The translations under genes and the position numbers were made by a program. From Desulfobacterales bacterium (GTDB taxonomy: Bacteria; Desulfobacterota; Desulfobacteria; Desulfobacterales; SpSt-501), in the NCBI GenBank assembly GCA_030834695.1, contig JAUQXK010000007.1, positions 1 to 49,239 on the forward strand: 49,239 nt of DNA, read 5' to 3'. Shown one piece after another: positions 3,631 through 31,388 of the stretch. The notes below the pieces were generated by a model that was given only the letters and a program-made list of their open reading frames with translations, searched no databases and was not told where the DNA came from. Each line of letters opens with the position of its first letter. Positions within the stretch are counted from its first letter, which is position 1.

Positions 3631-5073
3631 TCAAGGGAGAAATCCCGCTTCCATCAACGGCTGAGCCGGCATGGTCTGTTCGGCGTTTTCAATCCAACCG
3701 CCGCCCATGGCCTTGTAGATGTTGATCAGCGACCGGAAGAGCACGTTCTGGCCGGTCGTCTGGGACAGCTCGACGTTGAACAGGCTGCGATCGGCATCCA
3801 GCACCTCGAGGTAGCTGGTGTAGCCTTCGTCGTAGCGCATCCGTGCCAGGCGAGCATAGTTGCGCAGGGCTTTGAGCTGACGGTTCAGCGCCTCCAGCCG
3901 CTGGCCGGACTTGCCGCGGTCGACCAGCGCATCCTCGACTTCACGGAAGGCGTTCTGGATTGCTTGTTGATAGCTATAGACCGCCAGCTGCTGACCGGCT
4001 TCGGCGGCCTTGACCTCGCCGCCGATACGGCCGGCGGTGAAAAGCGGCACGCTCAGCGGCACGCCGAAATTCCATGTGCGGGAGGCGGCGGTGAACAGAT
4101 TCGACAAATCGGTGCTCACCGTGCCGAATGCTCCGGTCAAAGAGATGGTCGGGAAGTACAGCGACTTCGCCACACCGATGCGGGCATTGGCGGCGATGAG
4201 CGACTGCTCCGCCCGACGGATGTCCGGCCGCCGATCGAGCAGGTCGGACGGCACGCCGGCCGGCACAGCCGGCAGGACCAGCTCATCGATCGTCAAGCCG
4301 CGGGGGACCGCCCCCGGATTGCGCCCGAGCAGCACGCTCAGGGCGTTTTCCGTCTGGCCGATGGCGCGCTCGATGTCCGGGATGCGCGCGAGCGCGTCCT
4401 CGTACTCGGACTCCGCCTGGCTCAAGTCCACCTCGGAGATGATCCCGTTCTGGAAGCGCAGCTGGAACAAGTCCAAGGTGTCCTTGCGGCTGTCCGCCGT
4501 GCGCTGGGTGATTTCCAGCTGCTTGTCCAGCGCCCGGATGTCCACGTAAGACGCCGCCACCGCACTGACCAGGGTCAGAACCACGGTGCGCCGGGCCTCC
4601 TCGGTCGCGAGCAGCTCGGCGCGAGCCGCCTCGGTCGCCCGTCGGAACTTGCCCCAGAAGTCGATCTCCCAGCCGGCGTTGAGAAACGCCTCGTACTGGT
4701 TGTAGGGGTTGTCCTTGCCGTCGATGCGCGTCAGGCCCTTTTCGCTCAACCGCTGGCGAAAGGCATCGGCACTGCCTCCGGCCGAAGGGAACTGGTCCCC
4801 GCGGGTCGAGAAATACCGACCGAAGAACTCCTCGATGCGAGCCGTGGCAATGAGCAGATCCTTGTTCTCATCCAGAGCCATGCGCACCAGCCCGTTCAAC
4901 ACGGGATCGTTGAACTGCTGCCACCAGGCCGTGTTGACGAGATCCCGGGCCTCTTTCTCCTCGACCCGCCAGGCGGCAGGAGTGTCAATGGCCGGGCGTT
5001 TGTAGTCCGGCCCGACCGTCACGCAACCGGTCAGCAGCGCCAGCATCACTCCGCACAGTATGCGCTTAGGCAT
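3631..5073 (-). CDS. RND efflux outer-membrane lipoprotein (OprM/NodT family)
   Basis: A 480-residue TolC-type channel. The N-terminus [17 protein letters not shown] is a lipoprotein signal with the lipobox Cys at residue 17, followed by [10 protein letters not shown], the hallmark start of NodT/OprM-family factors. Two repeats of the outer-membrane efflux domain follow (for example around [14 protein letters not shown] and [20 protein letters not shown]). It forms the trimeric exit duct of the pump encoded directly upstream. Its ATG overlaps the end of the RND gene by 8 bases, indicating translational coupling. Third structural gene of a complete MFP-RND-OMF operon. Confidence 0.93.
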
Positions 5074-8000
5074 GCTCCCCTCCCTTCTGGCTCATCGAAT
5101 GTGGATCCTGGGCCGAGGTGTGGGTCTTGGCCGCATCCCCCCGATGGCTGAGCTTCTCAACGACATAATAGGTCATCGGAATCAAGAATATGGCGATGAA
5201 GCTCGCCGTGAGCATGCCGCCGATGACCCCCGTGCCCATCACCTGGCGCGCTACGGCGCCGGCCCCGGAGGCGATGGCCAGCGGCACGCAGCCCAGGATG
5301 AAGGCGAAGCTCGTCATCAGGATCGGCCGCAGCCGCAGCCGCGCTCCTTCCAGGGCCGCGTCCATGATGGACTTGCCCTTTTCGTATTCCACCTTGGCGA
5401 ACTCGACGATCAGAATCGCGTTCTTGGCCGCCAGCCCGATCAGCATGATCAGCCCGATCTGCGCGTAGAGGTTGAACTCCATGTGGCGCAGAAAAATGCC
5501 GGCAAAGGCGCCCAAGACCGCGATCGGGGTGCCCAACAGCACGCTGAAGGGCAGCGACCAGCTCTCGTACTGGGCCGCCAGGATCAGGAAAACGAAGAGC
5601 ATGGAGAGCCCGAAAATCACCGACACCGGCACCCCCTCCAGGGCCTTCTTCTCCTGAAAGCTCATGCCGAGGTAGTCGAAGCCCATCTCGCGCGGCATGT
5701 TGGCGTTGAACACCTCCTCCAGCGCGGCCATGGCCTGGGCCGAGCTGAAGCCCGGCGCGGCGACCACGTTCACCTGAGCCGAGCGGTAGAGGTTGTAACG
5801 CATGGTGAATTCCGGCCCGGAACGCTGTTCGATAGAGGTGACGGCCGAAAGTGGCACTGTATTGCCGGCGGCGTTGCGCACGTAGAACTGACCCAACTGC
5901 TCGGCCTGGGTGCGGTATTCGCCCTCGGCCTGCACGTACACCTGCCACTGCCTCCCGAAGCGGTTGAAGTAGTTGACAAAGTATCCGCCCATGAAGGCTT
6001 GCAGGGTGCGATAAACCTGGTTCAGATCAACCCCCTGCTTAAGCACCTTGTCGCGGTCAACGTCGACAAATACCTGCGGTACCGTGGGCAGGAAGGTCGT
6101 GGTCGCCCGGGCGATCTCCGGCCGTTTCTTCGCTTCCGCCAAGAACTTCTGGGTGTTCGCCCACAAAAAGTCGATGTCCTTTCCGGCGCGGTCCTCCAGG
6201 ATGAAAGTCACCCCGCCGGAGGTGCCGATGCCCGGTATGGCCGGCGGCGAGAACGCGAAAGCTACTCCCTGTGGGATGCTGCCCATGCGCTGGTTGAGGC
6301 TCGCCATGATGGCTCCGTATTTCTCCTCCGGGCTCTTGCGCTCGTGCCAGGGTTTGAGCGTGATGAAGAAAAACCCGCTGTAGGTGTTCGTCACCCCGGA
6401 GAGCATGCTGTAGCCGACCACCGTGGTGCAGTACTGCACGCCGGGGGTCTCCATGATGATCTTTTCGAGCTCCCGGGTGGCGGCATCCGTGCGCTGCAGC
6501 GAGGCGGCATTCGGCAGCTGCACGCCGGCGTAGAGATAGCCCTGGTCCTCCTCCGGCAGAAAGCCGCCCGGCACTCGCTTGCCCAATACGCCGATCGCAC
6601 CGCTCATGATGACGAGCAGGAGCAGGCTGATGACGAACTTGCGGATGAACCAGCCGCAGATGCTCACGTAGCCGTTGGTGGCCTTGCCGAACAGGGTGTT
6701 AAACCCGCGGTAGAAGGCGCCCAAGGGGCCGCGGGTCTTCTTCTTGGGCTTCAGGATCAGGGAGGAAAGCGCCGGGCTGAGGGTCAGAGCGTTGAAGGCC
6801 GAGATAATAACCGAGATGGCGATGGTGACTGCAAACTGCTGGTAGAGCTTACCCGTGATACCGGGGATGAAGACCGTCGGCAGGAATACGGCCGAGAGCA
6901 CGAGCGCGATCGCCACCACCGGCCCGGAAACCTCCTCCATGGCTTTTAGGGTGGCCTCCTTGGGCGAGAGCCCGTGCTCGATGTGGTGCTCCACCGCCTC
7001 CACCACCACGATGGCGTCATCCACGACGAGCCCGATGGCGAGCACCAGCCCCATCAGGGCGATGGTGTTGATGGAAAACCCCAGAAGCGGGAACATGGCG
7101 AAGGTGCCGATCAGCGAAACCGGGACGGCCAGGGCCGGGATCAGGGTCGCGCGCCAGCCCTGCAGGAAAATGAACACCACGATGACCACCAGCACCAGCG
7201 CCTCGAACAGGGTGTGGATAATTTCCTTGATGCCTTCGCGCACCGATTGGGTCGTGTCCAGGGGGATGCTGTATTCCAGATCGGTCGGGAAGTTCTTCTT
7301 GACCTCCTCCATGAGCCCGGTGACGCCGTCAACGGCTGCGATGGCGTTCGACCCGGGAAGCTGATAAAGGGCGAGCACCGCGGAGGGCTTGCCGTTCAAC
7401 CGACCGACCATCGAGTAGGTCTGGGAGCCTAGCTCGATGCGCGCGACGTCCTTGAGCCGCACGAGCGAGCCGTCCGGGTTGGCGCGCAGGACGATTTGCT
7501 CGAATTCTTCAGGCGCCTCCAGGCGGCCCTGGGCGCGGATGGAGTAGGTGTAGTCGATGCCGGGCGGCGCCGGCTCGGCCCCGATCTGCCCGGCCGGGTT
7601 GACCGTGTTCTGCTTTTTGATGGCGTCCACGATCTCCGGCACGGTGATGTTGAGTTTGGCGAGCTGGTCCGGCTTGACCCACAGGCGCATGGCGTACTGC
7701 CCGGCGCCGAACACGGTGACGCTGGCGATCCCGGGCACGCGCGTCAGCTGATCGTTCAGATTGATGTAAGCGTAATTGGCCAGGAAGGTCGCGTCGTAGC
7801 TCCCGCCCGGCGAAGACAACGCCACCAGCATGAGCGGCGAAGAGGTGGACTTCTTGACGGTTACCCCGTAGTCGCGCACCTCGGCGGGCAGCTTCGAATC
7901 CGCCTGCGATTTGCGGATCTGCGTCAGAACCTGATCGATGTTGGGATCAGTCTTGACGTCGAAGTTCACGTACAGCTTCAGCTCGCCGTTGTTGGCGTTG

Positions 8001-22884: not shown

Positions 22885-23052
22885 TTAGGGGCCTTTCGAC
22901 CTTTCGTATCTTTCGTTTGATTTTCGGATAGCTTCAAGCTCTTCAGGTGTCATGCTTTTTGAGCTTGCACAGCTTATCAGGAGCAATAAAGCCGCCATTA
23001 TGATTGCGATGGTCGATTTCACGGCCGTCTCCATCTGGTTCAGGAATTTCAT
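22885..23052 (-). CDS. Small putative lipoprotein
   Basis: A 55-residue peptide: MKFLNQMETAVKSTIAIIMA, then ALLLLISCASSKS with a good lipobox (LISC, Cys28), then a short charged tail (MTPEELEAIRKSNERYERSK). After lipidation only about 28 residues remain, as in entericidin-like and other tiny lipoproteins. The ribosome site is weak and the start could also be the Met at residue 7. It is flanked by the GAF gene and the Cys-rich repeat gene on the same strand. Function unknown. Confidence 0.6.
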   Translation of the reverse strand: MKFLNQMETAVKSTIAIIMAALLLLISCASSKSMTPEELEAIRKSNERYERSKGP

Positions 23053-23087
23053 TTTTGAGTCGCATCTGCCATTCCCTTGCACGTCAA

Positions 23088-23501
23088 TTATTTTTTCAAC
23101 CCGACATCTTTTAGAGCGCCCTTGCACCGTTGGCTCACTTTGGCTTCGTTCTTTTCCAGGCACTGCAACAAACGCCCCTCGCCCGCCTTCACACCCCCGC
23201 AGTTGGCGGCCACGTCCGCCTCGCACTCGCTGGTCACATAGGTCAAAGCGGCCACGGCGCGCTCAAGCCTTGCGGCGGCGTTGTAGAGAGCGTATTCGCA
23301 TTTGCCGGACAACTTGTCCTGATAGGCGTAAAGACAGGCGAGTATCCGCCCCTCTCCGGGCGTTACATTCTTGCAATAGGTTTCAAGCTCCGTTTTGCAG
23401 CCCGTCGCAACGGTTTCGATAATCGTCTCTTGCGCAGACAGGTTGCCGACGACTCCCAATGACATGGCCACCACTCCGATGATACAAAAAATTCTTTTCA
23501 T
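23088..23501 (-). CDS. Secreted cysteine-rich repeat protein (Cys_rich_FGFR / GLG1-type repeats)
   Basis: A 137-residue exported protein. The signal peptide is MKRIFCIIGVVAMSLGVVGN, cleaved near LSA-QE. The mature part has two repeats of the pattern C-x6-C-x(9-11)-C-x9-C, seen as GCKTELETYCKNVTPGEGRI with LACLYAYQDKLSGKC, and ECEADVAANCGGVKAGEGRL with LQCLEKNEAKVSQRC. Spacing and GEGR motifs match the cysteine-rich repeat family also found in the Golgi protein GLG1; bacterial members are periplasmic and uncharacterised. The gene follows the aspartase gene by 61 bp. Confidence 0.8.
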   Translation of the reverse strand: MKRIFCIIGVVAMSLGVVGNLSAQETIIETVATGCKTELETYCKNVTPGEGRILACLYAYQDKLSGKCEYALYNAAARLERAVAALTYVTSECEADVAANCGGVKAGEGRLLQCLEKNEAKVSQRCKGALKDVGLKK

Positions 23502-23562
23502 GAAATCCTCCTCTCAAAAGGTTGGTTTGATGCTCAGGTTAAGGTTGTACCCTAAAAAGCCA

Positions 23563-25422
23563 TCATTTGGGAATCTGCCGCGGGTCGGTCATGTTTTCGG
23601 GCCGCAGCAGATCGTCCAACTGGGCTTTGGTCAGCCACTTTTTTTCCAGCACCAGGTCATAGACATTGCCGCCGGTTTTTAGGGCTTCCTTGGCGATGGC
23701 GGCGGATTTCTCGTAGCCGAGCACCGGGTTCAGCGCCGTGACGAGACCGATGCTGCTCTCGACGTAATGGCGGCAGCGCTCCCGGTTGGCGCTGATGCCC
23801 GCAATGCAGCGGCTGGTCAGCATGATGCAGGCGTTTTTCAAGATCATCATGCCGTGCAGCAGATCGTAGGCGATGATCGGCTCGGCCATGTTCAATTCCA
23901 GTTCGCTCGCCTCGGCCGCCATGGAGATCGCCGTGTCGTAGCCGATGATCTGGTAGCAGATCTGGTTGACCAGCTCCGGGATGACCGGGTTCACCTTGCC
24001 GGGCATGATCGAGGAGCCCGGCTGCATGGGCGGCAGGTTGATCTCGTTCAATCCGCAACGCGGACCCGAGGACAGCCAGCGCAGGTCGTTGCAGATCTTC
24101 GAAATCTGGACCGCCGCGCGCTTCATGGTGCCCGACATCTGCGCAAAGCAGCCGGAGTCCTGGGTCGCTTCGACGAGGTTTTCCGCCTTGCGCACGGGCA
24201 GGCCGCTTACCATTGCCAGCAGCTTGGTGACCCGCTCGGCATAGCCCGGCGGGCTGTTGATCCCGGTCCCGATCGCCGTGGCGCCCATGTTGATGTCGTG
24301 CAATTCCACGGCCGCACGCCGCAGCGCTTCCGCCGCGCTTTCGACCATGCGGCTGTAGGCGCCGAACTCCTGACCGAGGGTCATCGGCACGGCGTCCTGG
24401 TTCTCGGTGCGGCCCATCTTCAGCACGCCGGAGAATTCAGCGGCTTTCTGCTCCAGCGCCTTGCGCAGCTCGCCCATGGCCGCCAGAAGGTCCATCAGCG
24501 AGAGGATGACCGCCAGCTTGATGGCGGTCGGATAGACATCGTTGGTGGACTGGGAGCAGTTGACGTCGTCGTTCGGGTGGAGATGGCTGTATTCCCCCTT
24601 GACATGGCCCAGGATTTCAAGCCCCCGGTTCGCAATGACCTCGTTGGCGTTCATGTTGGTAGAGGTGCCGGCGCCGCCCTGAAACATGTCCACGACGAAT
24701 TGTTCGTGGAGTTTGCCGGCCGATATCTCATCGCAGGCGGCGCAGATGGCCTTCATCTTGGGCTGAACCAGGACGCCCAGGTCGTGGTTGGCCATGGCGG
24801 CCGCCTTTTTGACAAACGCCAGAGCGCTGATGAAATGCTCGAAATTGCGCAGCGGCACGCCGGAGATCTGGAAATTCTCGAGGGCGCGAGCGGTCTGGAC
24901 GCCGTAATAGGCGTGGTCGGGCAACTCGCGTTCGCCCAGCGAGTCGTGCTCCCGGCGCACGCCTCCGACCGCTTTCAGTTCATCCGGCCCCTGCGCGGCC
25001 CCGGCGCGCAGGCGTTCGCTCATCCGCTTGGCCACCCGGGCGACGATGCGGTAGAACACGTCGGGGTTCTTCTGCCGGAATTCATCCAGCTGGCTGCGGG
25101 AGATCTGCCAGACAACGGCGCCGTGGCGGATGGCGGCGCTGGTCGAGTGGGGCAGGTCGTCCAGCAGGGCGCTTTCGGAAATGAGCGCCCCCGTCCGCAG
25201 CACGGCCACCCGTGTGGTCGATCCGTGCAGGCCGCGCACGATCTCCGCCTCGCCGTCCAGAACGATGCCGGCCCACTGGCGCGGGGTGGACTCGTGAAAC
25301 GCCCAGTCGCCCGCTTTGTAGACGACCGTTTCGCCTCTCTTGAAGAATGCTTTCAAGTCCTCTGTGTTGATGCCGATCGCAGCGGCTGCATTTTTTAGCG
25401 CTTTCTTGAGAATGTCCTGCAT
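23563..25422 (-). CDS. aspA: Aspartate ammonia-lyase with N-terminal cyclic-nucleotide-binding-like domain
   Basis: A 619-residue protein; ordinary aspartases have about 470. Residues of about 25-145 form a CRP-type cyclic-nucleotide-binding fold (VVYKAGDWAFHESTPRQWAG, IVLDGEAEIVRGLHGSTTRV, LLDDLPHSTSAAIR). The phosphate-binding cassette is degenerate: ISESALL and HSTSA replace the usual GEXA...RXA. From about residue 158 a full aspartase follows (LGERELPDHAYYGVQTARAL, GGAGTSTNMNANEV, ALEQKAAEFSGVLKMGRT) with the catalytic serine loop GSSIMPGKVNP at 469-479. The reaction is L-aspartate to fumarate plus ammonia. The gene follows a Dcu-type carrier by 39 bp, so aspartate uptake and fumarate handling are probably coupled. 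The N-terminal domain suggests direct allosteric control. Confidence 0.93.
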   Translation of the reverse strand: MQDILKKALKNAAAAIGINTEDLKAFFKRGETVVYKAGDWAFHESTPRQWAGIVLDGEAEIVRGLHGSTTRVAVLRTGALISESALLDDLPHSTSAAIRHGAVVWQISRSQLDEFRQKNPDVFYRIVARVAKRMSERLRAGAAQGPDELKAVGGVRREHDSLGERELPDHAYYGVQTARALENFQISGVPLRNFEHFISALAFVKKAAAMANHDLGVLVQPKMKAICAACDEISAGKLHEQFVVDMFQGGAGTSTNMNANEVIANRGLEILGHVKGEYSHLHPNDDVNCSQSTNDVYPTAIKLAVILSLMDLLAAMGELRKALEQKAAEFSGVLKMGRTENQDAVPMTLGQEFGAYSRMVESAAEALRRAAVELHDINMGATAIGTGINSPPGYAERVTKLLAMVSGLPVRKAENLVEATQDSGCFAQMSGTMKRAAVQISKICNDLRWLSSGPRCGLNEINLPPMQPGSSIMPGKVNPVIPELVNQICYQIIGYDTAISMAAEASELELNMAEPIIAYDLLHGMMILKNACIMLTSRCIAGISANRERCRHYVESSIGLVTALNPVLGYEKSAAIAKEALKTGGNVYDLVLEKKWLTKAQLDDLLRPENMTDPRQIPK

Positions 25423-25461
25423 GCCTGCCTCCTTTTACGCGTTCGCGTTTGCAACCGTTTA

Positions 25462-26796
25462 TCAGAAAAAAATTCCGCTGATGATCAGGCCCGCTCCGAT
25501 CGCGACGGCGGTCGCCACCAAACCGGGGAGCATGAAGGAGTGGTTCAGCACGAAACGGCCGATGCGGGTCGTGCCGGTGCGGTCGAAATTGATCGCGGCA
25601 ATCAGCGAGCCGTACGTCGGCAGGAAGAAATAGCCGTTCACCGCCGGCCACATGGCGACGAGATGCGCCGGCGCGATGCCCAGGCTGATCCCCAGCGGCA
25701 TCAGCGCCCGGGTGGTGGCGGCCTGGCTGAAAAGCAGCACCGAGGCAAAGAACAAGCCCAGGGCGAAGGTGATGGGGTAGGATGAGGTGATATCGCCGAT
25801 CGCGCCGATGATGACCGCCTCGTTGCCCTTGATGAAGGTGTCGCCCAGCCAGGCCAGGCCGAAAATACCGATGACGGCCGTCAATCCTGCCTGGGCGACC
25901 TCGGTCTTGGGAATTTTGGCAGCAGGGGCCCTGCTTGCCAGCAGCATGAGCGCCGCCAGCGACAACATGACAATCTGAATCGTGTCGGCCATCCCGAGCG
26001 GATTCGACGCAGTTCCTTTGGTGATGTGGGGCCGCAGGCCGGGGAAAAGGCCGGCCAGCACGATCAGGCCCACGCCAATCAGAAACATGACCGCGCTGAG
26101 GCGGGCGCCCTTGGGCAGCTCCCTCTTCTCGCCGTGCGCTTTCGAGGCTCCCGGCGGCTGAATCTCGCCGGCGTCGAGGCGGCGCTGGTACTCCGGGTCG
26201 TCTTTCAGTTCCCTGCCCACTCGGGTCTGAACCAGGGCGGCCGCAATCACGCCGATGACCGTTGCCGGCACGCAGATGAGCATGATCTGGGGCAGTCCCA
26301 CGCCCAGCGGCTCATACATGGCGATCATGGCCGCCATGGCCGCGGACACGGGCGAGGCCGTGATCGCCTGCTGCGAGGCGATGGTGGAAACCGCCATCGG
26401 CCGCTCCGGGCGGATGCCGTTTTCATAGGCGACCTGATAGATGATCGGCAGCAGCGGATAGAACACATGGCCGGTGCCGGCGCCGAAGGGGAAAAGATAG
26501 CAGACCAGCGGGGCCACGATGGTGATCTGCCGCGGATTGCGCCGGATGATGCGTTCGGCCAGCCCCACCAGATAGTCGATGCCGCCGGCCGCCTCCATGA
26601 CCGCGGCCGCCATGATCACGGCCAGGATGATCAGCATCACATCGATGGGCGGCGTGGTGGGCGGCAGGCCGAAACCGTAGCTGAGCACCAGCACGCCGGC
26701 GCCGCCCCACAGCCCCAGGCCGACTCCGCCGGAACGGCTGCCCAGGAAAATGGCTCCCAGGACCACCACAAATTCGAGAATCAGCTTTAGCAGCAT
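25462..26796 (-). CDS. Anaerobic C4-dicarboxylate transporter, Dcu family
   Basis: A 444-residue inner-membrane carrier with about ten or more helices. DcuA/DcuB features: MLLKLILEFVVVLGAIFLGS, GGIDYLVGLAERIIRRNPRQ, LVCYLFPFGAGTGHVFYPLL, ASQQAITASPVSAAMAAMIA and VNGYFFLPTYGSLIAAINFD with TGTTRIGRFVLNHSFMLPG. Family members exchange aspartate, fumarate, malate and succinate under anaerobic conditions. The frame is open to 26823, but the ATG at 26796 is preferred because AAAGGAG precedes it. It lies 39 bp upstream of the fused aspartase, forming a two-gene aspartate/fumarate operon. Confidence 0.92.
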   Translation of the reverse strand: MLLKLILEFVVVLGAIFLGSRSGGVGLGLWGGAGVLVLSYGFGLPPTTPPIDVMLIILAVIMAAAVMEAAGGIDYLVGLAERIIRRNPRQITIVAPLVCYLFPFGAGTGHVFYPLLPIIYQVAYENGIRPERPMAVSTIASQQAITASPVSAAMAAMIAMYEPLGVGLPQIMLICVPATVIGVIAAALVQTRVGRELKDDPEYQRRLDAGEIQPPGASKAHGEKRELPKGARLSAVMFLIGVGLIVLAGLFPGLRPHITKGTASNPLGMADTIQIVMLSLAALMLLASRAPAAKIPKTEVAQAGLTAVIGIFGLAWLGDTFIKGNEAVIIGAIGDITSSYPITFALGLFFASVLLFSQAATTRALMPLGISLGIAPAHLVAMWPAVNGYFFLPTYGSLIAAINFDRTGTTRIGRFVLNHSFMLPGLVATAVAIGAGLIISGIFF

Positions 26797-27199
26797 CGCA
26801 GCGTCTCCTTTCGCGACCCGCACACCCCCTTAAACTTCCAAGGAAGTCGATCTTAAAATCCCCCCGCCGCCTTTGCCGAAGGGGGGGGCCGAGGGAAGAA
26901 AGCTTTTCGATTTCGTTGCCGAGCAGGGTGGTGCTGCGCGCCATAACCCGCTTTTATTAAGGGTCTCATAATTGTCTTGGCGTCGTCATTCCGGCATGCT
27001 TTTTGCGGGAATCCAGTGAATTCAACCAGCTCTGGATGCCGGATCACGTCCGGCATGACAGTACTATTTCGAGACGATTAATAAGCGCCACACCCCGCCG
27101 CGGCGGGGATTTATCAGCAAGTAACCTGCCCTTTATCGGTTGTGAAAGTGAAAAAATCAAAAAACATATCTATCTGAAATAAAAACATAAATCTCGAAG
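26797..27199. other. Intergenic stretch with repeats, no gene seen
   Basis: About 400 bases between the second solute-binding protein and the Dcu carrier. It holds a C-run/G-run hairpin (CCCCCC at 26860-26865, GGGGGGGG at 26881-26888 with a 15-base centre), the MITE-like element at 26955-27084, and an AT-rich stretch (27116-27199) flanked by an 8-base inverted repeat (CAAGTAAC at 27118-27125, GTTACTTG at 27199-27206). No convincing coding frame on either strand. Confidence 0.6.
26955..27084 (-). repeat. MITE-like element, copy A
   Basis: About 130 bp. Read on the minus strand it starts TTATTAATCGTCTCGAAATA and ends TGAGACCCTTAATAA, giving terminal inverted repeats that match at 12 of 14 positions. 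The interior folds on itself through GTCATTCCGGCATGC and GCCGGATCACGTCCGGC, with GGAATCCAG and CTCTGGATGCC. It shares the same ends and interior blocks, in the same order, with the plus-strand element at 39189-39349. Non-coding, so any movement would have depended on a transposase elsewhere. Confidence 0.65.
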
Positions 27200-28030
27200 T
27201 TACTTGAAAGGAATGAGGAGGTCGGCATCCATGTCTCCGAAATGCTTCCGCCGCAGCCGCTGGACGGTGCCGTCGGTCTTCATTTTTTCGAGTTGTGCGT
27301 TCAGCCAGTCCAGGAGCTTGCGGTCGCCTTTGCGCACCGCCATGGCATAGGGCCTCGGCAGGAATGTTTTTCCCGTGGTCCTGAGATCCGGGTTCACCTG
27401 AGCCGCGGCCAAAACAGCGACATCGTCCTGGCACAGCGCATCCACCTGCTTGTTTTTCAGCACCTGGAGAGCTTCGGGCAGGCTCTTGAATGCAATCAAG
27501 CGGGCCTCGGGTGCCACCCGGGGCAGGTCGCTTTCCTGGACGGCGCCCTCCAGGACGGCGACACGCTTGCCGGCCAGATCCTGCACCGATTGAATGGGGC
27601 TGTCTTTGGGAGTCAACAGCATCGAACCCGTGACGAAATAAGGATTGGAAAAGTCCAAAACCCGTTGCCGATCCTCGGTGATCGTCATCGTGGCGATGAT
27701 GACATCGATCAACTCGCTGTATAGCAGAGGGATGCGCCCGCCGGAGGTCACGGGTACCAATTCGACGCCCGGCTCGCCATCGAAGAGCGCCCGGCCCAAG
27801 TAGCGTGCCAGATCCGCGTCGAACCCCTGGATCTCGCCTGCGGGGTCCGTATAGCCGAAAGGCGGAAAATCGGTTTTAACCCCCGCCAGCAGTTTGCCCC
27901 GGCGTCGGGCGTCCTCCAAACCGCCTGCTATGGATGGAACGACCAGGCAGAAAATCAGGAAAACGTTGACAGCGAAGATGAATCCAGTCTTAGCCGTAAC
28001 CGTCCGATCCACCTTCGGATCCTCCTTCAT
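27200..28030 (-). CDS. Family 3 solute-binding protein (amino-acid type), orphan
   Basis: About 276 residues. A hydrophobic N-terminal segment (TGFIFAVNVFLIFCLVVPSI, cleaved near AGG or retained as an anchor) precedes the SBP family 3 fold: RRRGKLLAGVKTDFPPFGYT, IQGFDADLARYLGRALF, LIDVIIATMTITEDRQRVLD, FSNPYFVTGSMLLTPKDSP and VLKNKQVDALCQDDVAVLAA. The conserved Arg and Asp of the amino-acid site are in place. The frame continues to a GTG at 28063; ATG 28030 is preferred because GGAG lies 8 bases upstream. No permease or ATPase gene is adjacent. The upstream neighbours are a 22-codon ORF and a receiver-only regulator, so a sensory role is possible. Confidence 0.87.
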   Translation of the reverse strand: MKEDPKVDRTVTAKTGFIFAVNVFLIFCLVVPSIAGGLEDARRRGKLLAGVKTDFPPFGYTDPAGEIQGFDADLARYLGRALFDGEPGVELVPVTSGGRIPLLYSELIDVIIATMTITEDRQRVLDFSNPYFVTGSMLLTPKDSPIQSVQDLAGKRVAVLEGAVQESDLPRVAPEARLIAFKSLPEALQVLKNKQVDALCQDDVAVLAAAQVNPDLRTTGKTFLPRPYAMAVRKGDRKLLDWLNAQLEKMKTDGTVQRLRRKHFGDMDADLLIPFK

Positions 28031-28059
28031 GCGGATACGCTCCGTGCGAGGTTCGATTT

Positions 28060-28128
28060 TCACCTTGCGAAAAGCATGGCGATGGCGGCCATGACAAAAA
28101 GGATGCCCAGCCAGTCCGTTAGCTTCAT
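28060..28128 (-). CDS. Possible 22-residue membrane peptide
   Basis: ATG to TGA encodes MKLTDWLGILFVMAAIAMLF followed by AR: a short amphipathic start, one hydrophobic span and a basic end, the usual shape of bacterial small membrane proteins. The stop codon overlaps the alternative GTG start of the solute-binding protein gene, and the ORF lies 28 bp downstream of the receiver-only regulator. The ribosome site is weak, so it could be chance; the composition is the only support. Confidence 0.3.
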   Translation of the reverse strand: MKLTDWLGILFVMAAIAMLFAR

Positions 28129-28156
28129 TTCGAAATCCCGTTCGACTGTCTCTGCC

Positions 28157-28570
28157 TTAATGCTCAGGCGTCGCCTTGCGCGGATCGGTTCCCCCCCGCC
28201 GCTGCATGGCATTCCGGATCAAGCCCACCAGAGCTTCATCGGAGAAAGGTTTTCGCAGAAAGCCGGCCGCACCGCTCTTAAAGGCCCGTTCTTCGACGCC
28301 ATCCTCCTCGTGGGCCGTGATAAAAATAACCGGCAAATCCATTCCGGCGCGCCGCATCTGCTCCTGAACCTCCAGGCCGGTCATCCCCGGCATCTGCACG
28401 TCGATCACCGAACAATCCGCATCATGAGGACTTCTCAAGACCGACAAGAATTCCTCGCCGGATGAAAACGTCCGGACCTGCATCCCCCAGGAGGAGAGCA
28501 GGCGTTTCAGCGCCCGACACACGGAAGGGTCATCGTCGACGACATGGACGAATGGGGAGATGTCCGACAA
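28157..28570 (-). CDS. Receiver-only response regulator (FixJ-type receiver)
   Basis: A 137-residue protein containing just a CheY-like receiver: VHVVDDDPSVCRALKRLLSS at the N-terminus, the acceptor Asp57 in CSVIDVQMPGMTGLEV, VIFITAHEED with the conserved Thr, and FLRKPFSDEALVGLI with the conserved Lys. The receiver resembles the FixJ branch, but the DNA-binding domain is absent and the protein ends about 15 residues after the fold. It may act as a phosphate sink or by protein contact. The 18-bp palindrome P2 lies 95 bp upstream, implying that its expression is controlled by the same regulator as the other P-site genes. Confidence 0.88.
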   Translation of the reverse strand: MSDISPFVHVVDDDPSVCRALKRLLSSWGMQVRTFSSGEEFLSVLRSPHDADCSVIDVQMPGMTGLEVQEQMRRAGMDLPVIFITAHEEDGVEERAFKSGAAGFLRKPFSDEALVGLIRNAMQRRGGTDPRKATPEH

Positions 28571-28665
28571 GCGGTTAAACCTTTTTCGCCCGGCATCTAT
28601 CCGACCGGTGCTTAAAAATGCATGGCCACGATAACTGCTCTACCAGGCATGCTGTAGGATTGGAA

Positions 28666-28683
28666 ATAAGACCTTGGTCCTAT
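28666..28683 (-). promoter_or_regulatory. 18-bp regulatory palindrome, copy P2
   Basis: The plus strand reads ATAAGACCTTGGTCCTAT. It is identical to P3 over these 18 bases, and the identity continues for three more bases to the left. It lies in the 124-bp gap between the DUF2950 gene and the receiver-only regulator, 95 bp upstream of the regulator start. Confidence 0.7.
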
Positions 28684-28694
28684 GTCCCCGTTTC

Positions 28695-29657
28695 CTACTC
28701 GACCTTCTTCCACGTCTTATCCGGATCGAACCATTTCATTGCCCTTGCGGTCGTCGCGGTGTTTTTGCCCAAATTCTTTTCATAAACCACCCCTTCGTGG
28801 TTCACCATAAATGTCATGACACCCGAATTTCCATATGCGGCCGGATAGGCAACCACGGCGAACCCGCCGATCATATTATTTTTCACGGCATAATCGAACG
28901 CCCCTCCGGGCGCATGTTTTCCCTGTTTTGTCAAAATCCTGAAATAGTAGCCGTGGAAGGGTATCGGGCCCTGCTTCGATCCGCTCCGCCGGTACCCCTC
29001 GGCCCGGGCGTCCGCAACAAGTTCACCCAGGGGACTCGGCTCCTCGCCGGGCTGCGTCTCCCAGTATAGTCCGTTCTTCTGGCCAGGGTCGCTCCCGAAT
29101 TTCTCTGCGTACTCGCGGATCCCGTCGTTGTCACGGTCCTTCATCGCATATTCACGCTGCGCATCGACTACGGCCAGCAGGGTCTGCACGGTGCTCAACT
29201 CGTTTTCACCGATTCTGCGGTTCAGGATCTCATCCTTGCCCGCCTTGGTATCGAAAAACCACTGGTCTCCTTTTTTCACCAAAGGGACTGGAAAGGGCCA
29301 GTCCTTCTCCCCGATAATGAGGACCACCTTGGCGCCTTCCTGCGAAAGGCTGTTTTTCCGGTCAAAATCGCCGATGAACAATTCCCTCCGCTGGTTATCT
29401 CGGACAGGGTCCCCCGAGGATATCAGCTCCTTTTCAGCCGCACCGAAGATCGACAGCAGCTCTCTCTCGTCATTCGACTTCATCGCAGCGGCAAACGCCT
29501 TTACCGCCTCTTCCGGTGTTGCGAATCCTTTCTGTTTGACCGCTGCCGCATCGGCGAAACTAAAGCCTAAAACTGCGATCACGAGAACGACGGCCGCTGC
29601 AAAAATCCGAAATGACTGGCAGGCCGAAGCCACTGTTTGATGGGTTCCCAGAAGCAT
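28695..29657 (-). CDS. DUF2950 secreted protein
   Basis: About 320 residues with a long signal peptide (FRIFAAAVVLVIAVLGFSFA, cleavage near ADA-AA). The mature protein shows the DUF2950 layout: KGFATPEEAVKAFAAAMKSN, LISSGDPVRDNQRRELFIG, FDTKAGKDEILNRRIGENEL, DGIREYAEKFGSDPGQKNGL and the C-terminal FHGYYFRILTKQGKHAPGGA followed by VNHEGVVYEKNLGKNTA. Function unknown; exported. The start is uncertain: ATG 29657 (AGGGAGG upstream) gives the better signal peptide, while ATG 29708 (AGGAGGT upstream) begins 2 bp after the DUF3300 stop. Either way it is coupled to the DUF3300 gene, a pairing common in other proteobacteria. Confidence 0.88.
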   Translation of the reverse strand: MLLGTHQTVASACQSFRIFAAAVVLVIAVLGFSFADAAAVKQKGFATPEEAVKAFAAAMKSNDERELLSIFGAAEKELISSGDPVRDNQRRELFIGDFDRKNSLSQEGAKVVLIIGEKDWPFPVPLVKKGDQWFFDTKAGKDEILNRRIGENELSTVQTLLAVVDAQREYAMKDRDNDGIREYAEKFGSDPGQKNGLYWETQPGEEPSPLGELVADARAEGYRRSGSKQGPIPFHGYYFRILTKQGKHAPGGAFDYAVKNNMIGGFAVVAYPAAYGNSGVMTFMVNHEGVVYEKNLGKNTATTARAMKWFDPDKTWKKVE

Positions 29658-29710
29658 CGCCGTCCTCCCTTTCGAGCCTGTCTGAAGTGATGATCGGTAT
29701 GGTTTCATGG

Positions 29711-31033
29711 CTACCTCCTGCCCCCGCCCCGGCCGCCGCCACCGCCGCCCCTCGAACCCGCACCGCTGTAGCTGCCGCCGCTCCGGCTGCCGGATGACAT
29801 GCTCTGACGACTGGAACTGCCGCGGTTGCTGAAGTCGCGCGACTCGCCGCCGCCCCGGTCCATACCTGAAAAGGCGCTGCCTCCCTGGCCGGAGCTATCC
29901 CGCCCCCCGGCCTCTCGGGTTGCTGGCCGACCTTCAACGCTGCCGCGCTGGCCGGCGCCCGGGCGGTCTCTCGAGGCATCCACGCTACCACGGGAAGCTT
30001 CCCTGGTGTCCGCCCGGCCTTCAAAGCCGCCCCGCTGGCCGGCATCTTGGCGACTTCGGGCCTGATCGGCGCCGCCGCGTGCAGGATCCGGTCTGCCCGT
30101 TTCGGTACGCCCACGATAATTTTCCCTCGATTTGACTGCTTCGTTGGTGGAGGCCCGGTTATACTTCTGGGCCGTTCCCTGGTCCCGGTAGGACACCCCT
30201 TTGCGGTGTTCGGGGTTGTGCTGCCAGTTTCCCCGGCCGCCCTCGTACTGCTTCGAGTAGTTCCCTCGATTGATGTTATTGTTGATATTGGTGTTTCGGT
30301 CGATATCGACATCCACGTCGCCGCCGTGCCAGTCGCAGCCACCCCAGGCATACCCCCAGGCGGCTCCAACGGCCATCCCCACCCCGAAGGAGAACAAGGC
30401 GGTCCCGGCCACATACCCCGGCGGGTAGTAGGTGGCCGGCGGGTAGGCGGGGTATGGCCAGGTGCCGTAGACGACCGTCGGGTTGTAAGTAGGCACGTAC
30501 ACGACCTGAGGGCTGGCCGACTCGATGACGATCGTCTCCTGCTCGACCACCACTTTCTGCTCCTTGGTGGTCTTCAGGGTTCCTGCTTCGGCCGCCTTCT
30601 TCCGAAGGTTCTGGACCGTGGCCATGACGTCCTTTTGCTGGGCGAGGAACGCGTCGCCCAGCTTCTGCGTCCAGTCCAGTTTCTCGCTCATCATGGCCAG
30701 CACCTGAGGAAAGTTAGCGAGGGACTTGACACTGGGGTCCCATGGCTGTTTCTCGAGCGCTGTCGTCAGGGGATCCCCCTTGAGATCCTTGTTCTGCTTG
30801 GCCCAGCGGTCCGCCTGCACCACTTCGAGCGGATAGGTCGACGCCATCAAAACCTGAGCCAACAACGAATCGGGATAAAGAGCGACCGGCGCCAGCAACT
30901 GGTCCAACTCCTCCTGTTTAAAGGCCGGTTGGTCCGTCGGCTGTCCGAACGTCCCCTGCGGGACCGCCAGCATGCACACCAGAACCGATAGCAGAACCGG
31001 GAAGCATTTTTTTATGATTACCGTTAGCCTCAT
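29711..31033 (-). CDS. DUF3300 secreted protein with Gly/Arg/Ser-rich tail
   Basis: About 440 residues. After a signal peptide (IIKKCFPVLLSVLVCMLAVP, cleavage near GTFG-QP), the DUF3300 domain spans about residues 35-230: FKQEELDQLLAPVALYPDSL, LLAQVLMASTYPLEVVQADR, WDPSVKSLANFPQVLAMMSE, and VVYVPTYNPTVVYGTWPYP. A glycine-rich hydrophobic stretch (GVGMAVGAAWGYAWGG) follows, then about 180 residues of low-complexity Gly, Arg, Ser, Asp and Gln ending in a run of Gly-Arg. The tail looks disordered and strongly basic, perhaps binding polyanions. The start at 31033 follows AAGGAGATACC. Palindrome P3 lies 218 bp upstream. Confidence 0.88.
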   Translation of the reverse strand: MRLTVIIKKCFPVLLSVLVCMLAVPQGTFGQPTDQPAFKQEELDQLLAPVALYPDSLLAQVLMASTYPLEVVQADRWAKQNKDLKGDPLTTALEKQPWDPSVKSLANFPQVLAMMSEKLDWTQKLGDAFLAQQKDVMATVQNLRKKAAEAGTLKTTKEQKVVVEQETIVIESASPQVVYVPTYNPTVVYGTWPYPAYPPATYYPPGYVAGTALFSFGVGMAVGAAWGYAWGGCDWHGGDVDVDIDRNTNINNNINRGNYSKQYEGGRGNWQHNPEHRKGVSYRDQGTAQKYNRASTNEAVKSRENYRGRTETGRPDPARGGADQARSRQDAGQRGGFEGRADTREASRGSVDASRDRPGAGQRGSVEGRPATREAGGRDSSGQGGSAFSGMDRGGGESRDFSNRGSSSRQSMSSGSRSGGSYSGAGSRGGGGGGRGGGRR

Positions 31034-31388
31034 GGTATCTCCTTCCATATCTATTGCGCCCGAAGCGATGACGCATATCCGATCGAGAAAAACTCCTTTA
31101 GGAGACCTCTTAGGAAAGGCTCTTGACTTGGTTTGCCATATAGCCGGCGCCGTTCTCGGCAATGTTGGCAGGTGTGCTGATATCCGTCAATCGATTGCTC
31201 CTTTGCATGAGGATGGACACCCTTTCTATCAGAGGGGGATAGCATGTTGAAATAAGACCTTGGTCCTATCTGTTCGGATCGAGCGCCCCGATCCAAAAAA
31301 CAAAAAACAGGGAACCGCACGCAATGGGTGAAGGGATAGACCCATGCTTCAGTGATTCGCGCGGAAACCGGAAAAAAGCCCGGAATCC
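31034..31388. other. Long leader region upstream of the DUF3300 gene
   Basis: About 355 bases between the K+ channel gene end and the DUF3300 start. It holds palindrome P3. Between P3 and the start codon are 218 bases with no convincing ORF, so the DUF3300-DUF2950 transcript may have a long 5' leader. The part to the right of P3 (31270-31388) shows nothing recognisable. Confidence 0.5.
31252..31269 (-). promoter_or_regulatory. 18-bp regulatory palindrome, copy P3
   Basis: The plus strand reads ATAAGACCTTGGTCCTAT, identical to P2. On the minus strand a possible -10 (TATCCC, preceded by TGC) lies 10 bases downstream of the palindrome. It is upstream of the DUF3300-DUF2950 pair. Confidence 0.7.

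Follow-up and report, generated by a model that had tools for sequence, protein, structure and literature searches.

An aspartase fused to a cyclic-nucleotide-binding-type domain with a conserved, altered cassette in a Desulfobacterales bacterium and its relatives

An aspartase (aspartate ammonia-lyase) of a Desulfobacterales bacterium carries a cyclic-nucleotide-binding-type domain (CNBD) at its N terminus, and its gene directly follows that of a Dcu-family C4-dicarboxylate carrier. Both genes lie in the stretch of DNA analysed here, hereafter the window, which comprises positions 1 to 49,239 of contig JAUQXK010000007.1 (assembly GCA_030834695.1). The CNBD belongs to a family, present in some sulfate-reducing and related bacteria, in which the signature arginine of the phosphate-binding cassette has been replaced by a strictly conserved histidine, which, from sequence, suggests that a signal other than cyclic AMP (cAMP) may control the aspartase step. 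We propose that the domain is a non-cAMP sensor of an anionic metabolite that may gate the conversion of aspartate to fumarate, an interpretation whose chances we judge to be evenly balanced. The architecture, the predicted fold, the conserved alteration of the cassette, the gene linkage and the active-site residues from which it starts are direct observations of this analysis.

The initial annotation had described an aspartase with some 150 additional CRP-like residues at its N terminus, and Pfam, NCBIfam and the predicted fold all agree with that description. The open reading frame (ORF) starts with ATG, 5 nt after the end of the ribosome-binding-site-like sequence AAAAGGAGG. Pfam recognises cNMP_binding at residues 33-119 (39.9 bits, cut-off 27.5; E 4e-10), Lyase_1 at 164-494 and FumaraseC_C at 560-612. 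A lack of any match to the fold, named at the outset as the outcome that would refute the description, was not borne out: the domain of the window protein scores above the PF00027 cut-off, and all 40 family members scanned match this family at E <= 0.01. AlphaFold2 modelled the N-terminal domain alone (40 sequences) with a predicted local distance difference test score (pLDDT) of 88.1 and a predicted template modelling score (pTM) of 0.80, and the full-length protein (37 fusion sequences) with a mean pLDDT of 82.2, falling below 50 at residues 141-149. The best solved structure found by Foldseek for the CNBD model is MtbCRP with cAMP (E 1e-10), and VIA-align matches 144 residues to cAMP-bound GlxR at 2.8 Å, with a Z of 16.4. 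In sequence-profile comparisons, Toxoplasma PCR12 (9ya0) and the cGMP-dependent protein kinases (PKG) come closest among solved chains, followed by CRP-type regulators. Fold matches also include a cUMP-binding CNBD (8jsk) and the plant K+ channels GORK and SKOR, the CNBD-like domain of which is not known to bind cyclic nucleotides. The C-helix contacts the base in CRP through Thr/Ser, and an ungapped match would place R137 at what we take to be CRP Thr127. This reading of the base contacts was dropped, because the register relative to CRP is ambiguous: three sequence alignments each insert a four-residue gap, and the structural ranges do not settle the matter.

The cassette of the window protein reads SESALLDDLPHSTSA, in which Gly has become Ser, Glu is kept (E83) and Arg has become His (H92). 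Profile alignments to PKG and PCR12, and three alignments to E. coli CRP, place H92 at the phosphate-binding Arg. Among 40 CNBDs of the family (that of the window and 39 of the 41 loci of the scan described below, L077 and L104 being left out), this position is His in all 40 and Arg in none, Glu is kept in 38, and the Gly preceding it is Ser or Ala in 38. W40, E44, S45, T46, P47, W50, G52, G57, G64, G78, H92, G101 and R137 are invariant, with R48 and F42 each present in 39/40. For comparison, 44 control CNBDs of the order (from 11 regions of the window's own genome and 30 loci, the latter high-scoring domains) have R in 18, F in 16, Y in 4, H in 2 and L, M, V and T in one each at the Arg column, and E in 29 at the Glu column. 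The earlier claim that the cassette lacks the usual GEXA/RXA residues is thus half right, since the Arg is gone but the Glu remains, and the term "degenerate" does not fit the domain. With Glu kept, Arg fixed as His and further residues invariant across the family, the CNBD is therefore better described as a constrained variant. Two tandem single-CNBD proteins at another locus (L114, G000:C149:24372-25117) also have His at the cassette Arg position, without the Glu.

A scan of the contig collection with an alignment of four CNBD sequences (A4) found 41 loci, 40 of which continue into an aspartase at near-constant spacing (with the lyase truncated by the end of the contig in L079, L094 and L101), and the fusion is therefore not due to chance. 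The lyases of three loci are identical to seeds (L077=L005, L092=L039, L097=L038), so 38 of the 41 are independent of the query; distant fusions are under-counted, because the peptide patterns of the scan favour close relatives. By record title, the loci are mostly from Desulfobacterota (Desulfosarcina, Desulfogranum, Desulfopila, Desulfobacter, Desulfobulbus and metagenome-assembled genomes (MAGs)), the others being MAGs of Desulfuromonadales/Geobacteraceae, three of Acidobacteria and one that bears the label Mycobacterium. Four of the 58 genomes made up of the window's own and its relatives contain the fusion (G000, G008, G048, G045), as do four of 395 genomes of the phylum (G000, G144, G333, G266), the latter result being the same for the full protein or the CNBD alone as query. 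The four matches to the CNBD alone (E <= 1e-18) all fall in the four fusion genomes. The family is patchy in its distribution, and this CNBD subfamily has been seen only in fused form (40/41 loci; 4/4 matches in the 395 genomes). The exception, L104 of Desulforhopalus singaporensis (4906-6531), is a broken CNBD-aspartase remnant beside an open frame that appears by eye to be asparaginase-like; in Desulfopila aestuarii (L096), the intact fusion is immediately preceded by a gene of this asparaginase-like cluster (31). At L085 (3771-6485) the fusion frame extends to 905 aa and its lyase match ends at residue 426, probably through a frameshift or assembly error. Long frames upstream of fumarase/aspartase-type genes (L122-L126) were considered as other N-terminal fusions and rejected, as the upstream parts of the four viewed in full appear, by eye, to be non-coding.

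The ratio of non-synonymous to synonymous substitution rates (dN/dS) was obtained by comparison of 24 fusion sequences, and we consider the 16 pairs in which the lyase dS is smallest. In the eight nearest pairs (CNBD dN < 0.2) it is 0.10-0.24 for the CNBD and 0.05-0.15 for the lyase, and in these pairs the CNBD is under purifying selection. The eight more distant pairs give 0.31-0.96 and 0.12-0.43, respectively, values that are unreliable because dS hardly rises with distance. A tree of the lyase domain was built from 64 rows by a quick method, without bootstrap and with long branches flagged; fusion loci L075, L078, L079, L083, L085, L087, L090, L094, L101 and L104 were left out, three duplicates were entered once, and the outgroup consisted of only three fumarase-like rows, labelled by eye. 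In this tree, 31 of the 32 fusions of the main type form one clade (98 by the SH-like approximate likelihood ratio test, SH-aLRT), and a second fusion type (L006, L040, L007) forms a separate one (SH-aLRT 96). A single origin of all fusions was not upheld, as the main clade also contains the unfused L048 and the relation of the second clade is unsettled. Neither does CNBD similarity decide between one and two origins, since L040 scores 66 bits, L006 49 and L007 5, and a single-CNBD protein encoded in the same genome as the window scores 48. The cassette pattern is kept in two of the three members of the second type (HSTSA in L006, HTTTA in L040) and lost in L007. L048 (G410, minus strand) is an aspartase on a long branch with, by eye, a signal-peptide-like start, a picture that would fit loss of the CNBD and export of the enzyme. 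The remaining fusion of the main type, L068 (6001-7857), resembles the window's clade in its first half; of the 13 segments compared from column 301 onward, nine are nearer to the unfused L008 and three to the window protein, with one tie. This segment-by-segment comparison describes a patchy mosaic, and a domain swap was rejected.

The fused lyase is predicted to be an aspartase that converts L-aspartate to fumarate. It scores narrowly over the cut-off of the NCBIfam equivalog TIGR00839 aspA (687.9 against 681.2 bits) and shares 52.5% of 469 aligned positions with E. coli AspA. Nine positions that we take to be substrate-binding or catalytic in the E. coli enzyme (T104, S105, S143, T144, N145, T190, S321, K327 and N329) are identical. 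Among the others checked, S322 is identical, and V106, Q191 and L192 correspond to T255, E340 and N341 in the window protein, the last two each being present in 32 of 37 aligned fusions. An unfused 46% paralogue on another contig of the genome (L002) was taken as a fumarase by eye and used as a tree outgroup.

Table 1. Positions of the fusion gene, its parts and its partner genes in the window
Feature	Coordinates	Strand	Details and basis
CNBD-aspartase fusion gene	23563..25422	-	619 aa, coordinates including stop; ORF, Pfam, NCBIfam
N-terminal CNBD, residues 1-150	24973..25422	-	PF00027, AlphaFold2 model, Foldseek and VIA matches
Interdomain linker, residues 141-154, low model confidence	24961..25002	-	pLDDT
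Aspartase domain, residues 155-619	23566..24960	-	TIGR00839; identity to E. coli AspA
Ribosome-binding-site-like AAAAGGAGG before the fusion ATG	25428..25436	-	Sequence
Altered phosphate-binding cassette, residues E83 to H92	25147..25176	-	E83 38/40, H92 40/40
Family motif W40-x-F-[HQ]-E-S-T-P-R-x-W-x-G52, beta roll	25267..25305	-	Conservation in 40
Catalytic loop GSSIMPGKVNP, residues 469-479	23986..24018	-	Invariant in 37/37 aligned fusions
Dcu-family C4-dicarboxylate carrier	25462..26796	-	PF03605 (DcuA_DcuB) E 3e-143; NF006927 548.8 bits, cut-off 369
Periplasmic solute-binding protein SBP_bac_3, upstream of dcu	27200..28063	-	PF00497 E 5e-35

The Dcu carrier named as the partner gene at the outset is supported, both by its Pfam match (Table 1) and by its recurrence. 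In the window, dcu lies upstream of the fusion on the same strand at a distance of 39 nt; a likely start is the ATG at 26796, giving 444 aa, the longest ORF running from a GTG at 26823 (25462-26823). Neighbours were surveyed at 40 loci (L104 left out), with gene families named from cluster representatives, and in 28 of the 38 testable loci, those in which the contig extends 900 bases or more beyond the fusion on its upstream side, a Dcu gene lies just upstream on the same strand. In L067, L068 and L069, which are near relatives, genes for SBP-like proteins likewise stand ahead of dcu. A sodium:dicarboxylate symporter (SDF, PF00375) occurs at 7/40 loci, each with an SBP_bac_3-type gene nearby. 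Downstream of the fusion, an frdC/sdhC-type gene is present at 5/40 loci (L071, L072, L074, L077 and L083); in four of these no other gene tested for stands between it and the fusion, and in L071 two do. The flavoprotein accompanies it in four cases and the iron-sulfur subunit in three. These neighbour counts are minimum values, since many contigs stop a short way past the fusion. No frd/sdh-cluster genes were found in the 20 kb of the window around the fusion (16-36 kb). Scans of 23000-28800 for promoters and terminators gave counts no higher than in shuffled sequence (1 against 1.5 and 5 against 6.2), and hence say nothing about an operon.

Four carriers were compared with those of E. coli. 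The Dcu of the window is 42.2% identical to DcuA and 39.9% to DcuB, that of L067 42.0% and 39.4%, and those of L071 and L089 59% and 38-39%, respectively. DcuA, which is encoded with aspA in E. coli, prefers aspartate and exchanges it for succinate, according to the accessible text of PMC10634366. This preference and the gene setting together are therefore best read as a sequence of aspartate uptake, conversion to fumarate and fumarate reduction, in which the direction of the reductase (fumarate or succinate) is presumed, as is the whole reductase step for the window. The idea that the system stands at the entry of aspartate into fumarate respiration consequently draws on relatives, with their frd/sdh-type genes at some loci and, in L071 and L089, DcuA-like carriers, rather than on the window's own locus, where no frd/sdh-cluster genes were found in those 20 kb and the Dcu is nearly equidistant from DcuA and DcuB.

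Several other genes near the fusion are recorded here as observations. Genes for DUF2950 and DUF3300 proteins stand in a row at 28695-31162, upstream of the block formed by the solute-binding protein, Dcu and fusion genes, with a response-regulator gene (28157-28570) in between; in L067, too, the block is preceded by genes of these two clusters. Just downstream of the fusion (23088-23501) is a gene for a small protein with cysteine-rich FGFR-type repeats (PF00839). At many loci (e.g. L071, 3920-4495) the gene before dcu encodes a protein of 170-190 residues that looks secreted by eye and matches no Pfam family; members of its cluster occur at 18 loci, and none was found in the window or at L067-L069.

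In the mechanism that we propose, Dcu would import aspartate against succinate or fumarate, aspartase would yield fumarate and ammonia, and the fumarate could pass to fumarate reductase. The N-terminal CRP-type CNBD would respond allosterically to a small anionic metabolite and, via its C-helix and the linker, would determine how active the fused aspartase is or how it oligomerises. Control of this kind has a precedent in mycobacterial acetyltransferases, which cAMP switches on by way of an N-terminal CNBD fused to the enzyme (PMC5861322, in the text available). The ligand would most plausibly be a dicarboxylate or another signal of carbon/nitrogen status, in the manner of NtcA, which binds 2-oxoglutarate in its CNBD cavity as described in the available part of PMC12937710. 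The narrower proposal that the CNBD, rebuilt around its invariant His, directly senses a C4-dicarboxylate or 2-oxoglutarate, and so couples carbon/nitrogen status to fumarate supply, is doubtful.

A number of points weigh against the proposed sensor. We infer ligand binding, the identity of the ligand, control of activity, the sign of the effect and the transport substrate of Dcu from sequence. The CNBD evolves faster than the lyase (dN/dS of 0.31 and 0.12, respectively, between the window and L069, its nearest listed relative), and the position following H92 is variable, with S/T in 24/40 and A, G, V or N in the others. The low-confidence linker means that the model contains no reliable domain contact, and the ambiguous register of the C-helix leaves the second half of the pocket unreadable. 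Six genomes of the same genus (80 to 100% complete) are without the fusion, and 10 of the 38 testable loci have no adjacent Dcu (L083, L088, L093, L096, L097, L100, L101, L105, L106 and L107). Finally, NtcA holds the carboxylate of its ligand by the cassette Arg, according to the portion of PMC12937710 consulted, and this residue is absent here.

The best-surviving alternative, possible though on balance unlikely, is that the CNBD has no ligand and serves as a module for oligomerisation or protein docking, its cavity being filled as in the regulators SdrP, HB099 and DdrI. The loss of the cassette Arg in 40/40, the lack of conservation of the Ser/Thr that follows and the presence among the fold matches of GORK and SKOR, whose CNBD-like domain is not known to bind cyclic nucleotides, are all consistent with it. 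So too are the conserved R48, R63, E83 and R99, which could form cavity-filling salt bridges like those reported, in the text available, for several CNBD-family regulators that have no ligand (PMC12937710). On the other side, the fixed E83 and H92 and the invariant motifs, maintained over three nominal phyla (by record title), suggest a specific site, but salt bridges, too, could be conserved.

Still less probable is that the domain remains a receptor for a cyclic nucleotide, be it cAMP, cGMP, cUMP or some other, in which a protonated His does the work of the Arg. In its favour, 38/40 retain the cassette Glu, the nearest folds are those of cAMP-bound CRP and GlxR, and the cUMP-binding 8jsk also matches. 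Three guanylate-cyclase-type domains score over cut-off in the genome, but this count says nothing about the fusion protein, and the cassette Arg, present in 18/44 control CNBDs of the order, occurs in 0/40 of the family. An invariant His (40/40) in the region of the cavity also brings to mind a heme-based sensor of gas or redox state like CooA, with H92 as axial ligand, and CooA does use His77 of the same fold (PMC12937710 and PMC12750200, as far as their available text goes). However, CooA depends on lacking the counterpart of CRP residues 72-82, by the available text of PMC12937710, and because the corresponding segment, E83 to H92, is present in the fusion family, we set this very improbable reading aside. 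That the fusion is an artefact, from a mis-called start or a chance joining of two genes, has negligible probability; nothing in its favour was found, and it was ruled out by the ribosome-binding-site-like AAAAGGAGG before the ATG of the CNBD and by recurrence of the fusion, at near-constant spacing, at 40 loci.

CNBDs are usually read as sensors of cAMP or cGMP, and for those with an altered cassette the ligand has often not been identified. Here, an altered CNBD is joined to an enzyme whose activity is easily followed by spectrophotometry, in strains held in culture collections (the genera Desulfogranum, Desulfopila, Desulfosarcina and Desulfobacter carry the fusion), and ligands can therefore be screened directly by activity. 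Should a metabolite be found, it would represent a further form of aspartase control beside the PII interaction reported for E. coli, and would explain how some anaerobes gate the use of aspartate as a source of fumarate. If the sensing of a dicarboxylate or 2-oxoglutarate is correct, a single polypeptide would couple carbon/nitrogen status to the supply of fumarate for anaerobic respiration.

Full-text literature searches, which covered neither subscription papers nor preprints, returned among the matches listed no description of a CNBD-aspartase fusion or of a metabolic enzyme with a CNBD that senses a dicarboxylate, although the architecture is, we presume, visible in domain databases. Among the closest known arrangements is E. 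coli aspA next to dcuA, which shares with the fusion locus the lyase, the nine active-site residues and the Dcu neighbour; the fusion differs in its 150-residue N-terminal CNBD, in the gene order (dcu then aspA) and in having E340/N341 for Q191/L192. E. coli AspA reportedly interacts with the PII protein GlnB (Schubert et al. 2021, going by the title), which would likewise make aspartase a control point for nitrogen status, exerted there through a separate PII protein rather than a fused domain. CNBDs of the CRP/GlxR type (PF00027) have in common with ours the beta roll and C-helix (Z about 16) and the cassette Glu, whereas the fusion has His for the cassette Arg and Ser/Ala for Gly (38/40) and carries no DNA-binding domain. 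The mycobacterial lysine acetyltransferases (CNBD-GNAT) also join an N-terminal CNBD to a catalytic domain, but the enzyme is a different one and, on the available text of PMC5861322, is activated by cAMP, against which the cassette of the fusion argues. NtcA offers the parallel of a CNBD cavity as a possible dicarboxylate site and of the carbon/nitrogen theme; it is, in the part of PMC12937710 available, a transcription factor that holds the carboxylate by the very Arg that the fusion lacks. Enzymes regulated by CNBDs are thus already known, and what is new here is the aspartase partner, the fixed Glu/His cassette and the Dcu setting.

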